From assembly GCA_030628225.1 (NCBI GenBank), contig DAOVRJ010000051.1:1-11858 (forward strand): a DNA stretch of 11,858 bases. Reading direction: 5' to 3'. Positions 3,792 to 8,941 of the stretch are shown here, piece by piece. This stretch comes from Candidatus Zixiibacteriota bacterium (GTDB lineage Bacteria; SM23-81). Below the pieces are notes generated by a model. It worked only from the letters and a program-made list of their open reading frames with translations, was not told the origin of the DNA and searched no databases. The stretch's first letter is position 1. Each line of letters starts with the position of its first letter. Made by a program: the position numbers and the translations under genes.

Positions 3792-4835
3792 TCAGGTGGT
3801 CACTGCCTCGCCCTCCAGCGAAACTGCCCGCAGGTCCTCCACGGCCCTCTCGGGAGCAACGGGGTTAATGTGAAAACCGCTTCCCCATTCGAAGCCCGCG
3901 GTGCGCATAATCCGTGGTATGATCTCAAAATGCCAGTGGTAATCTTTATCGATGGTCTTCCAGGCACCCTTTTGGGGAACGGTGTTGGGGGCGTCGTGGA
4001 GCATGCAGTTAAAAGGCGGATCCCTCAGCACCCGATGAAGCCGGGCAAAGGTTCTCTTGAATATCAGGGCCAGGTCTTTCAGCTCCCCCTCTCCCAGCTG
4101 GGAATACCGGGCTTGATGTTCCCTGGGCAGGATCCAGCACTCATACGGAAATCGAGATGCAAAGGGGGCCAGGCATAAAAATGTCTCATTCTGATCCACC
4201 AACCGCGTGCCGTCCCTTTCCTCCTGACGGATCACGTCGCAGAAAATGCAGCGCTCCTTCATCTTAAAATATCTGCGGGTGCCGGCCAGCTCCAGCTTCA
4301 CCTGAATGGGCACCACCGGGGTGGCGATGACCTGGGAATGGGCATGGGAGATGTCCCGGGAGCCGGCCCGCCGGCCCCGATTCTTGAAGACCAGAACGTA
4401 CTTCAGGCGCTCGTCCTTCTTCAGATCTACGATCCGTGCCTGGTAGGCGCTCAAGATCTTCTCCACCTGCTCCAGGCTGGAGTTGTGAAAATCCTGACCG
4501 TGATGCGGTGTCTCGATGATCACCTCGTGGGCCCCGATGCTGTTCATCAGGTCGAACAGGCCCAGGCCCCGCCGACCAAGCTCCGTGTTTGAGCTCAATA
4601 CCGGACGGATATTGGGGATACACCGGACGAACCATCCCGGGGTATTGGGATATGTGCCCCTGTTTCGGTACGAGAAGATCTCCGGAGAGGTATGATCCTC
4701 GCGGCCCTCGCAGAAGGGGCAGTCCTCCCGGTCGCCGTCGGTGTCGACAGGCTCTAAATCCGGCAGGCGACCATCCCCATCGACACAGACGATAACCCAT
4801 CTGCCCGTGATGGGATCCTTGCGCAACTCAGTCAT
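3792..4835 (-). CDS. galT: Galactose-1-phosphate uridylyltransferase family protein
   Basis: A 347-residue member of the HIT-superfamily nucleotidyltransferases that swap UMP between UDP-glucose and hexose-1-phosphate. Visible motifs are RKDPITGRWVI (5-15), the first metal site DCPFCEG (Cys39, Cys42) with HH at 111-112, the active-site SHAHSQ (163-168), a second CIFCD (196-200), and YHWHFEIIPR (299-308). His164, His166 and Gln168 line up by number with the E. coli residues, His166 being the uridylylated nucleophile. The reading frame is open upstream to 4874, but I chose ATG 4835: AGGAGG lies 6 nt before it and conserved sequence begins right there. It overlaps the upstream gene by 8 nt. No galK or galE is nearby, so a biosynthetic role with another sugar phosphate is possible. 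Confidence 0.9.
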   Translation of the reverse strand: MTELRKDPITGRWVIVCVDGDGRLPDLEPVDTDGDREDCPFCEGREDHTSPEIFSYRNRGTYPNTPGWFVRCIPNIRPVLSSNTELGRRGLGLFDLMNSIGAHEVIIETPHHGQDFHNSSLEQVEKILSAYQARIVDLKKDERLKYVLVFKNRGRRAGSRDISHAHSQVIATPVVPIQVKLELAGTRRYFKMKERCIFCDVIRQEERDGTRLVDQNETFLCLAPFASRFPYECWILPREHQARYSQLGEGELKDLALIFKRTFARLHRVLRDPPFNCMLHDAPNTVPQKGAWKTIDKDYHWHFEIIPRIMRTAGFEWGSGFHINPVAPERAVEDLRAVSLEGEAVTT

Positions 4836-5805
4836 CCGCTTCCTCCTCCGACCCATCCTCTTTGGCCAGCCCAAAACGTATTGCTCCCGCCAAAAGGGGG
4901 ATCATGATCTCGTGGTGGCCGATAATTTGAAAACCGCGACCACCGGCCTGGGTGGGTCGCTGGACCAGGTTCATCGTGGGACGATAGTGCCTGATCATGT
5001 CGAAATTGGCCGTGGTGAATCCCTTGATCTGCCCCCGAATATTCCTGGCCAGGGATAGCGATTTCAGAAAAACTTCCGGCAGCAGAACGGCCGAGCCAAA
5101 ATTCAGAACCACACCCCCACCACCAATCTGGGAGACACAATTGGCAAATATCTTAAAATCCCTGTAGCTTAACTCACCTATAGCTGCGCCATCGGCCGAG
5201 GGATGCTGATGGATCACATCTGTGCCCAGCGCCACGTGAACGGTCACCGGCAGGGAGAGCCGGTAACCGGTGGCCAAAATGCTGTGATCCTCGTTAAGTG
5301 GACTTATCTGGCATAACCGCTGGCCTAAACACTCGCCGAATCCCATCCCGGCGGGAGCATTGCAGATGGCCTTGTTGATCAGATCCGCTGTCTCGCCGGC
5401 CATCCCAAAGCTGCCTTTGGCCAGAGAGGCGGCCACATCCTCAGAAGTATGTCCCCACACGGCGATCTCCGTGTCGTGAATAGCTCCGGCGCCATTTAAA
5501 GCCACGGCGGAGATAATTCCTCGACGCATCAGATCCACGATGATGGCGGAAAGGCCGCATTTTATCACGTGGGCGCCCAACATAAAAATCACCGGTTTGT
5601 TCCTCTTCGCAGCAGCCAGGATACGGCGGACGATATCGCGAAAGTCCTTGCCCGCCAAAATATCAGGAAGAGCTTTATCCAGCTGAGCGAACCAGTCCTG
5701 TGGTTTTATGACCCGGGCAAAATCCTTCAGGTGGACTTTGCTCTGGCGATTTCCCATGGAGACGCTCTTGATCTTGCTCAAATCGATCTGCTGATGTTTC
5801 GACAT
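4828..5805 (-). CDS. Deoxyhypusine-synthase-like conserved protein, function unknown
   Basis: The 325-residue soluble protein has a Rossmann-like look: PVIFMLGAHVIKCGLS (71-86), an amphipathic helix, then ALNGAGAIHDTEIAVWGHTSEDV (102-124). The last segment sits where deoxyhypusine synthases have their TGxNxxHD motif. Further conserved-looking pieces are ALGTDVIHQHPSADGAAIGE (192-211) and GGGGVVLNFGSAVLLPEVFLKSLSLAR (228-254). I did not find the active-site lysine context of true deoxyhypusine synthases with certainty. A bacterium would have no eIF5A substrate, so another NAD-linked reaction is likely. ATG 5805 was chosen, 23 nt after the DUF3108 stop; the open frame reaches 5928, but that start would overlap the neighbour by 100 nt. 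The Shine-Dalgarno is poor (AGAGG too close to ATG). The acidic tail ends inside galT's ribosome site, giving coupling. The superfamily call is tentative; the gene itself is certain. Confidence 0.6.
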   Translation of the reverse strand: MSKHQQIDLSKIKSVSMGNRQSKVHLKDFARVIKPQDWFAQLDKALPDILAGKDFRDIVRRILAAAKRNKPVIFMLGAHVIKCGLSAIIVDLMRRGIISAVALNGAGAIHDTEIAVWGHTSEDVAASLAKGSFGMAGETADLINKAICNAPAGMGFGECLGQRLCQISPLNEDHSILATGYRLSLPVTVHVALGTDVIHQHPSADGAAIGELSYRDFKIFANCVSQIGGGGVVLNFGSAVLLPEVFLKSLSLARNIRGQIKGFTTANFDMIRHYRPTMNLVQRPTQAGGRGFQIIGHHEIMIPLLAGAIRFGLAKEDGSEEEADD

Positions 5806-5828
5806 ACCTCTGCCCGCCTTCAAGATAT

Positions 5829-6734
5829 TTATTTCAACTTGTAGCTCTTCAACTCGGCGTCGATAGACCCGATGAGCACCTTGCTCTTCATCAGCACCGG
5901 CATCTTCTGCTCGTCGGCGGTCAGCCACACCGTCAGTTTTCCCTCGTGCTTAAAGACCCCGCCGGCCTTCAGGATTGGCTGCACCACGAAACAGTCGAAA
6001 GACCCCGCCGGCACCTTTACCCACTCCCGCCGATGGACCTTCACCTCCAGGGGATATATCTTCTTCCCGGAGTGATTATCCACGTACAGGGACTGGCCCA
6101 CCACAATATCTTGTGTGCGAATGTAGTAGAGGGTGGAGAGCACGTCCTGCACATACGGCGGTATCTCCATCTCGCCCCTGTCGGTGGTGACGGTATGATT
6201 GATCTGATCGAAGTTGGCAAACCGATCAGCCTTGTACTTGCCCTCACGAAGGTGCTTCTCGAACCTCCAGGGGAAAAGACCCCTTGTATCGACAAAGGTC
6301 TCCGCCCTATCCTCTACCTTGAAAAAGGAGGAGAAAAACTTATTGGACCTGGCCGTGGATATGATGTGGTAGCAATCCCGATCTTGCAATTGAACGATCT
6401 GGCTGATCTCCATCACAGCAGTTCCGGCATTAATGGGCCCGTAGGAGATCTCGAAAACCAGCTTCTCCCCCAGGCCGAAAGCCCCGTTCTCGATCTCTCT
6501 TAACTCCCCGATACAGTTCTCCCCGGACCCCTGGCCGGGAGACCCCATCGACTTGGCATCCTGGCCCAGAGAATCGGCTGCCAGGGTATCTACCACCAGA
6601 GAATCTGTGGCTTCCGCGATAGATTTGGGGGTGTCCGCATCTGCCGGAAGCTCATCGGCAGCAAGCCCGCAGCAGAACGCCATGCCGCTAAGCGCCAGAA
6701 TGGTGAATATGCTCAGTCGAACGATTTTCTTCAT
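5829..6734 (-). CDS. Exported DUF3108-family protein
   Basis: The 301-residue protein begins MKKIVRLS followed by a hydrophobic run and a small-residue site (GLAA before DE, about residue 27), a signal peptide for secretion to the periplasm. Residues 28-80 are an acidic, low-complexity linker rich in Ala, Asp and Ser. The rest matches the DUF3108 pattern: FGLGEKLVFEISYGPINAGTA, then YHIISTARSNKFFSSFFKVEDRAETFVD, an FEKHLREGKYKADRFANFD stretch, and a late VWLTADEQKMPVLMKSK strand. The family is a beta-rich periplasmic domain of unknown biochemical role, often near envelope genes. ATG 6734 was chosen over upstream ATG 6770 because the signal peptide starts there and AGGAG lies 8 nt upstream. 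Its first 47 nt overlap the end of the GT9 gene, so translation is probably coupled. Confidence 0.85.
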   Translation of the reverse strand: MKKIVRLSIFTILALSGMAFCCGLAADELPADADTPKSIAEATDSLVVDTLAADSLGQDAKSMGSPGQGSGENCIGELREIENGAFGLGEKLVFEISYGPINAGTAVMEISQIVQLQDRDCYHIISTARSNKFFSSFFKVEDRAETFVDTRGLFPWRFEKHLREGKYKADRFANFDQINHTVTTDRGEMEIPPYVQDVLSTLYYIRTQDIVVGQSLYVDNHSGKKIYPLEVKVHRREWVKVPAGSFDCFVVQPILKAGGVFKHEGKLTVWLTADEQKMPVLMKSKVLIGSIDAELKSYKLK

Positions 6735-7786: not shown

Positions 7787-8941
7787 TCAGGGAAGCCAGC
7801 TCTCGGGCGTTTTCACTAAAACTGGCAAAATTCGTTCCAATTCCCTCCTGATCTGTCTAAAAACTCTCTCATAGACCCGCCGTGATTGGCCCATGGGATC
7901 CTCAATATCGCCTAGGTCCTTGGAACCAGTGCTCGGAAAAGAGGTGAGCAGATGGATCTTTTGGGCAAACTGCCTGCCCATCCGCTCAATGTGCCTGGTC
8001 TGAGAGAGGGTCATGGTCAACACCAGATCCGATTTCCCAAGAAGGTCGCTGGTCAGCCGCCGGGCTCGGTGTTTTGAAATGTCGACCCCTTCCTCAGTAA
8101 AGGCAACCTTTTTAGCCCACAAGGATGCTGGATCTTTCTCCACGGCGTGAGTCCCAGCGGATAGAACACGGATCTGGCTGATTCCTTTGGCCGAAAGCAT
8201 CTTTTTCAGTAAGCCCCCGGCCATGGCGCTGCGGCAGGTATTTCCGGTGCAGACCATCAAGATGGTGACCAATCCGCAGGGTTTCCCCGCTGAAATGTGC
8301 CCAACGTCCACCACCCGCCGGATCTCGTCGGTGGGGACCCTTCCCTCGCGAAGCAGCGTGGCCGGCTCCTGCCGGACATCCAGGATGGTGGAGGGAATAA
8401 CCAGTGGGGCCCTACCCCCGTCTAAAATCAGATCAACTCGATCTCCCAGTTGCTTCTGGACCTCTCCGGCGGTCAGCGGAGGGGGGCGACCCTCAAGGTT
8501 GGCACTGGGCGCGGTAAGGGGAACACGGATCACATCCAGGAGGCTGCGGACCACACGGTTGCCGGAGATGCGCAGGGCGATTGTGGATCCTCCACCCAAT
8601 ACCTCCCCGGGAACCTCCGCGGAGGCCTCCATGACCAGAGTGAGGCCGTCGGGCCAGAAACGCCCCATCAGAGCCCTGGCCGGCGGAGGGATCTCTCTGA
8701 CCAAGGCTTTCAGCTGCCGGCGATTGCGCACCAACACGATGAGCGGCTTGTCTGGCGAGCGTCCCTTGATCTCGAACACCCGGCTCACCGCTCTCCTGTT
8801 CAGCGCATTGGCGCCCAAGCCGTACATCGTCTCCGTGGGGTAGGCCACCACGCCCCCGGCCAAGACGATCCTGGCGGCATGCTCGATGGCCGCCCGTAAG
8901 ATATATCGAGGGTTCACTGTGACCAGCGGTGCCTTGCTCAT
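7787..8941 (-). CDS. Fused threonylcarbamoyl-AMP synthase (Sua5/YrdC) and low-molecular-weight phosphatase
   Basis: One unbroken 384-codon frame encodes two domains. Residues 12-208 are a Sua5/YrdC/YwlC domain: GGVVAYPTETMYGLGANA (29-46), KGRSPDKPL (59-67), STIALRIS (119-126), TAPSANLEG (143-151) and IPSTILDV (182-189). This enzyme makes threonylcarbamoyl-AMP for tRNA t6A37. A short linker follows, and residues 226-384 are a low-molecular-weight phosphatase: P-loop VCTGNTCRS (230-238; Cys231 nucleophile, Arg237) and the general-acid aspartate in DIEDPMG (Asp348). Thr235 occupies the place of YwlE Thr11, which favours phosphoarginine; tyrosine phosphatases usually have Ile there. In Bacillus the two activities are the neighbouring genes ywlC and ywlE. 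I see no frameshift and no ribosome site before Met229. GGGGAG precedes the ATG. Residues up to SGTHAVE-like SAGTHAVE (261-268) follow the family pattern. Confidence 0.93.
   Translation of the reverse strand: MSKAPLVTVNPRYILRAAIEHAARIVLAGGVVAYPTETMYGLGANALNRRAVSRVFEIKGRSPDKPLIVLVRNRRQLKALVREIPPPARALMGRFWPDGLTLVMEASAEVPGEVLGGGSTIALRISGNRVVRSLLDVIRVPLTAPSANLEGRPPPLTAGEVQKQLGDRVDLILDGGRAPLVIPSTILDVRQEPATLLREGRVPTDEIRRVVDVGHISAGKPCGLVTILMVCTGNTCRSAMAGGLLKKMLSAKGISQIRVLSAGTHAVEKDPASLWAKKVAFTEEGVDISKHRARRLTSDLLGKSDLVLTMTLSQTRHIERMGRQFAQKIHLLTSFPSTGSKDLGDIEDPMGQSRRVYERVFRQIRRELERILPVLVKTPESWLP

Follow-up and report, generated by a model that had tools for sequence, protein, structure and literature searches.

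A TsaC/Sua5 and YwlE-like phosphatase fusion gene in Candidatus Zixiibacteriota and its possible tie to protein-arginine phosphorylation

The t6A modification of tRNA is universal. Sua5 starts its synthesis by making the threonylcarbamoyl group, which TsaD transfers. HypF is a known acylphosphatase-YrdC fusion. The substrates of LMW phosphatases are phospho-monoesters and phosphoramidates. The TsaD protein of Bacillus subtilis was found to be phosphorylated at Arg282, to be destabilised by the loss of ywlE, and to be stabilised by the loss of mcsB or clpC; in addition, the R282K form was stabilised and the loss of ywlE no longer affected the reporter (PMC7546277). This regulation by McsB and YwlE was demonstrated in B. 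subtilis only, and ywlC, Sua5 and TsaC are not mentioned in that work (PMC7546277). For the phosphatases themselves, a study of YwlE and PtpB describes position PX5 as the determinant of preference, with Thr steering LMW phosphatases to phosphoarginine (pArg) and Ile to phosphotyrosine (pTyr), and with Thr lowering the pTyr-type activity of both enzymes (PMC8001253). A literature search returned no paper tying ywlC/Sua5 to ywlE or reporting a Sua5-phosphatase fusion, and in the accessible part of a paper on the synteny of t6A genes the fusions covered are those of TsaB/D/E, a Sua5-LMWPc fusion not being among them.

Architecture of the fused gene

The window analysed is the whole of an 11,858-nucleotide stretch of a Candidatus Zixiibacteriota genome (contig DAOVRJ010000051.1). 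The preliminary description had claimed one uninterrupted frame with two complete domains, and this was borne out: the ORF at 7787-8941 on the minus strand begins with ATG, comprises 384 codons with no internal stops, and matches PF01300 and PF01451 far over their cut-offs. The features are as follows.

7787..8941, minus strand: fused gene, TsaC/Sua5 plus YwlE-like LMW phosphatase, 384 aa (ORF, Pfam, NCBIfam)
8318..8908, minus strand: TsaC/Sua5 (threonylcarbamoyl-AMP synthase) domain, residues ~12-208 (PF01300, TIGR00057)
8267..8317, minus strand: inter-domain linker, residues ~209-225 (AlphaFold pLDDT < 50 at 217-222)
7790..8266, minus strand: LMW phosphatase domain, residues ~226-384 (PF01451 and fold matches)
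8228..8254, minus strand: P-loop V230-CTGNTCRS238 with nucleophile C231 and R237 (alignment)
8237..8239, minus strand: codon of Thr235, position PX5, equivalent to YwlE Thr11 (sequence, and role of PX5 from PMC8001253)
7898..7900, minus strand: codon of Asp348, which is the general acid in the motif D348-P349-M-G (DP motif) (invariant in 18 fusions)

The assignment of the synthase half is supported by the following data. Pfam Sua5_yciO_yrdC (PF01300) was matched at residues 26-200 with 179.1 bits (cut-off 25.1), and the NCBIfam model for L-threonylcarbamoyladenylate synthase (TIGR00057) at 17-210 with 186 bits, over its equivalog cut-off of 123.2. All active-site motifs were present in the alignment (P35-T-E-T-M-Y-G41, K59/R61 and S146-A-N148), as were the further motif residues R124 and R198. 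When the predicted first domain was compared to solved structures, P. abyssi Sua5 was matched with a Z of 34, and the P. abyssi and T. maritima Sua5/TsaC2 structures with Z 32-34. The only other YrdC domain found in the source genome lies within a HypF gene. This HypF gene (L002; G000:C268, 346-2973) is split by one in-frame TAA into frames of 345 and 514 aa, and would be either a broken gene or an assembly error.

The AlphaFold model of the fused protein gave two confident domains (mean pLDDT 93.2, pTM 0.64), and linker residues ~217-222 were predicted to be disordered. The disorder of the linker together with the pTM suggests that the two predicted domains have no fixed contact.

It was considered whether assembly or sequencing had merged two neighbouring genes. 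The same architecture was found in Zixibacteria SM23_81, which was assembled separately, with 70% identity over residues 1-381 and a matching gene neighbourhood, and an intact fusion of 41% identity was found in G001, which belongs to a different family within the phylum. In G002, from the family of G001, the fused gene is interrupted solely by contig ends (C77/C15). A profile of the fused protein also retrieved genes spanning both domains in no fewer than 121 of the 199 Planctomycetota genomes sampled; the 120 planctomycete genes that were fetched all have the two domains in a single open frame. No sign of an artefact was found, and since SM23_81 and G001 share the fusion, it was deemed excluded for practical purposes, its probability being close to nil. 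Elsewhere in the window, a 366-aa ORF with no Pfam match (4828-5928, minus strand) is also kept in SM23_81 (L003 8669-9643).

The phosphatase half and the arginine phosphorylation genes of the genome

The LMWPc family (PF01451) was matched at residues 227-370 with 97 bits (cut-off 23.2), and the fold, the C(X)5R(S/T) P-loop and the DP general acid of the YwlE type were all present (C231, R237, D348-P349). Among the closest folds were T. tengcongensis LMW phosphatase (4egs, Z 25.4) and B. subtilis YwlE (4kk4, Z 25.3), with tyrosine phosphatase structures scoring just below YwlE at Z values that are near ties. In phmmer the T. tengcongensis enzyme was again first (6e-21), followed by YwlE (1e-15) and the PTPs (1e-10 or weaker). 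The scores of the Wzb and PRK11391 families were far under their cut-offs. An identity as ArsC arsenate reductase was rejected at 28.6-45.6 bits against curated cut-offs of 157.6-215. Apart from this domain, a single LMWPc was found in the source genome; it is ArsC-like, with IGNAARS. Since the other LMWPc is ArsC-like and the other YrdC domain is in HypF, the fused protein is probably the only threonylcarbamoyl-AMP synthase and the only YwlE-like phosphatase of the cell, as judged from the gene content of a genome of 92% completeness.

The P-loop VCTGNTCRS, with Thr235 at the position of YwlE Thr11, was read on the sequence and the alignment as the preliminary description had given it; the Ile of the LMW protein-tyrosine phosphatase type is thus not present at PX5. 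As an arginine-phosphatase signature Thr235 stands for this protein, but it is not universal among the fusions. PX5 is Met in the sister-family genomes G001 and G002, although both encode McsB, and it is Leu, Ile, Arg or Met in 15 of the 120 planctomycete fusions, all in McsB-bearing genomes. Because the pattern used for collecting the first locus set includes MVCTGNTC, the conservation of Thr in that set was biased and was remeasured on sets found by profile. A separate variant, GN[TS]DRS, in which the second Cys of the P-loop is replaced by Asp, was seen in seven planctomycete fusions (in L110-L229, e.g. L154 and L174); the nucleophile and the Arg are kept, and two of the seven are in genomes with no detected McsB.

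The source genome also carries genes for a McsA homologue, McsB and ClpC in a row on contig C190. The McsA homologue has CxxC motifs and a UVR motif, and its nearest NCBIfam model is McsA, with a score under the cut-off. McsB passed NF002194 (447.5 bits, cut-off 385) and missed NF053707 (423.3 bits, cut-off 500); its phmmer match to the solved protein-arginine kinase 6tv6 (4e-98) spans almost the full protein and takes in its C-terminal part. In each of the four genomes of the phylum (the source and three phylum-mates) mcsB is present, with mcsA and clpC adjoining. The McsB-type kinase that the preliminary description had proposed to look for is thus encoded here, and pArg signalling in this organism, which it had offered as conjecture, gains support from these predicted genes.

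Distribution of the fusion and its association with McsB

Beyond the Planctomycetota, 74 genomes of other bacterial families were sampled, and the LMWPc genes, Sua5 matches and PF00217 genes were listed for each. A fused gene was found in five (G252, G253, G273, G275 and G276), and the two genes were side by side and unfused in another 14. The two-domain architecture, whose mapping had been suggested at the outset, also has a form of ~520-600 aa in Fermentithermobacillaceae, in which the halves are separated by a retained segment as large as the Sua5 C-terminal domain; the remaining fusions lack that domain. The fusion is therefore common in public genomes and not special to the source genome, and the architecture may already be listed in domain databases. 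The statement that ywlC and ywlE are neighbours in Firmicutes was also confirmed, with separate adjoining ORFs in L021, L024, L027, L030 and L031, and in L036, L049, L051 and L054 as well. In one Negativicutes locus (L029 8900-9958) a YwlE-like phosphatase opens a 353-aa frame, perhaps as a fusion to RpiB; the solved homologue 4egs bears the name RpiB.

In the Sua5 tree the clade of the window's gene (99/91) is apart from the planctomycete fusions, which are separated by a branch (99/96) that unites the window's clade with Firmicutes and stand-alone Sua5. The Fermentithermobacillaceae fusion was deduced to be a separate event from its extra Sua5 C-terminal-domain-sized stretch. In a wider, weakly resolved Sua5 tree the fused label required 11 changes, of which well-supported branches force only two, and in the tree of the short LMWP domain the relations between groups were not resolved. 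From the wider Sua5 tree it was concluded that the fusion arose independently at least twice, and on these sequences probably more times.

For the cross-phylum comparison, the two genes were counted as linked when fused, or when on the same contig and strand and < 2 kb apart. The Fisher tests take the genomes as independent, which is true only approximately. On that basis, linkage was found in 16/24 McsB-positive and 3/50 McsB-negative genomes (p = 7e-8), in 15/22 and 2/44 when restricted to genomes of 90% completeness or more (p = 6.5e-8), and in 16/23 and 3/36 when restricted to LMWPc-bearing genomes (p = 1.3e-6). Position PX5 followed the same division, being Thr or Ser in 15/21 McsB-positive and 2/15 McsB-negative genomes examined (p = 8e-4). 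The three linked genomes that are McsB-negative have Ala or Ile at PX5, and one of these is only 59% complete. Within Planctomycetota the association of the fusion with McsB was weak (p 0.065 with fetched genes, 0.02 when rows spanning both domains were added); this phylum offers little contrast because McsB is nearly universal there (187/199 genomes).

McsB was not detected in four planctomycete fusion genomes of the 199-genome sample, nor in the fused genomes G005, G020 and G037; several fusion genomes without detected McsB are small or fragmentary. A PF00217 control gave no match in any of 14 genomes, B. subtilis included. The McsB of B. subtilis is known and its structure is solved. The miss implies that something is lacking from either the control genome or the search, and some McsB-negative calls may therefore be wrong; random misses of this kind would dilute the association, not produce it.

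Some exceptions within Planctomycetota were also recorded. Eight genomes have a short unfused TsaC with McsB still present; a group of this type is seen in L230-L236 (G216, G154, G097, G230, G170, G118 and G201), in four genomes of which no LMWPc was found. In others (L238-L242: G163, G194, G135, G209 and G200) the fusion co-occurs with a separate Sua5-domain ORF of ~350-470 aa, so that the synthase half of the fusion could diverge freely.

Since the genomes that hold both genes together almost always carry McsB, t6A synthesis and pArg tagging look linked well beyond Bacillus, as far as gene content can indicate. The old functional link suggested in the preliminary description is supported by this association and by the control of TsaD in B. 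subtilis (PMC7546277). Both the cross-phylum tie of the linkage with McsB and its fit to TsaD control look unreported.

Proposed function and comparison with known systems

The fused gene likely encodes a bifunctional threonylcarbamoyl-AMP synthase and protein-arginine phosphatase that tethers the removal of pArg to the t6A machinery; from the data above we infer the enzyme activities, the role of TsaD as client and the advantage of tethering. The N-terminal half would make threonylcarbamoyl-AMP for t6A37 modification of tRNA, while the C-terminal half, as a YwlE-type phosphatase, would reverse the pArg marks set by the genome's own McsA/McsB and read by ClpC. The fusion would most likely deliver the pArg eraser to TsaB/TsaD/TsaE, the partner complex of Sua5, and in this way TsaD, perhaps along with Sua5, would escape degradation by ClpC. 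Such delivery to the complex served by Sua5 would be useful because B. subtilis TsaD is under McsB/YwlE control. The minimum effect would be that co-expression of both activities is fixed.

That minimum could also be the whole of the matter: neighbouring genes may have fused for convenient co-expression, with both enzymes working and sharing neither functional coupling nor a client. The frequent adjoining unfused genes of the cross-phylum sample, the apparent lack of fixed contact between the domains and the eight Planctomycetota that keep McsB with a short unfused TsaC are consistent with this. Mere neighbourhood, however, leaves unexplained both the tracking of linkage with McsB and the separate fusion events, and in B. 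subtilis TsaD has been proven to be a client of McsB and YwlE (PMC7546277); this explanation was judged possible but doubtful.

The phosphatase could instead be a tyrosine phosphatase unrelated to pArg, for example one serving envelope polysaccharide synthesis, as a mannose-1-phosphate guanylyltransferase and a GT9 glycosyltransferase are among the genes next to it on the same strand. The Met at PX5 in the sister genomes and the closeness of the YwlE and PTP fold scores would fit this, but the Wzb and PRK11391 scores, the McsA-McsB-ClpC genes of the source genome, the tracking of PX5 Thr/Ser with McsB and the Thr at PX5 here, a residue that reduces the pTyr-type activity of both YwlE and PtpB (PMC8001253), make it improbable. 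It was deemed highly improbable that the domain is a quality-control hydrolase within the t6A reaction, acting for example on threonylcarbamoyl-AMP, pyrophosphate or a misformed adenylate. The domain is indeed joined to the synthase from which those compounds arise, with HypF as a precedent, but the substrates of LMW phosphatases are of other kinds, and the strong association with McsB would be given no reason.

The bifunctional reading can be extended to a broader proposal, which we regard as rather unlikely in its full form: the pArg circuit would be old and widespread, with Sua5 physically delivering the eraser to the t6A complex, shielding TsaD from McsB/ClpC and setting t6A output by protein-quality stress. 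If this is true, the translation of ANN codons would be set, via t6A output, according to that stress. Phosphoarginine has been studied almost only in Gram-positives, and McsB was found here in most Planctomycetota and about one-third of the 74 other-family genomes. Combined with the findings on TsaD in B. subtilis, the linkage offers a testable hypothesis for a gene neighbourhood that had no explanation: the pArg degradation system would have t6A synthesis as a conserved client.

With B. subtilis YwlE and S. aureus PtpB the protein shares the LMWPc fold, the C(X)5R P-loop, PX5 Thr and the DP acid, and McsA-McsB-ClpC are likewise encoded in the genome; it differs in that the phosphatase forms the C-terminal part of a fusion with Sua5, in its ~30% identity and in its pArg activity being predicted only. 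With TsaC/Sua5 proteins (YwlC, YrdC and T. maritima TsaC2) it shares the full domain and active-site motifs, but the Sua5 C-terminal domain is missing and the phosphatase occupies its place. A YrdC/TsaC domain is likewise joined to another enzyme in HypF and in TsaN (a TsaD-TsaC fusion), whose partner domains differ and include no LMW phosphatase. The Fermentithermobacillaceae fusions hold both activities in a single frame, as predicted here, and differ in the extra stretch between the halves. The Planctomycetota fusions have the same domain order and likewise lack the Sua5 C-terminal domain, with a tighter linker and a more variable P-loop than the fusion of the window.
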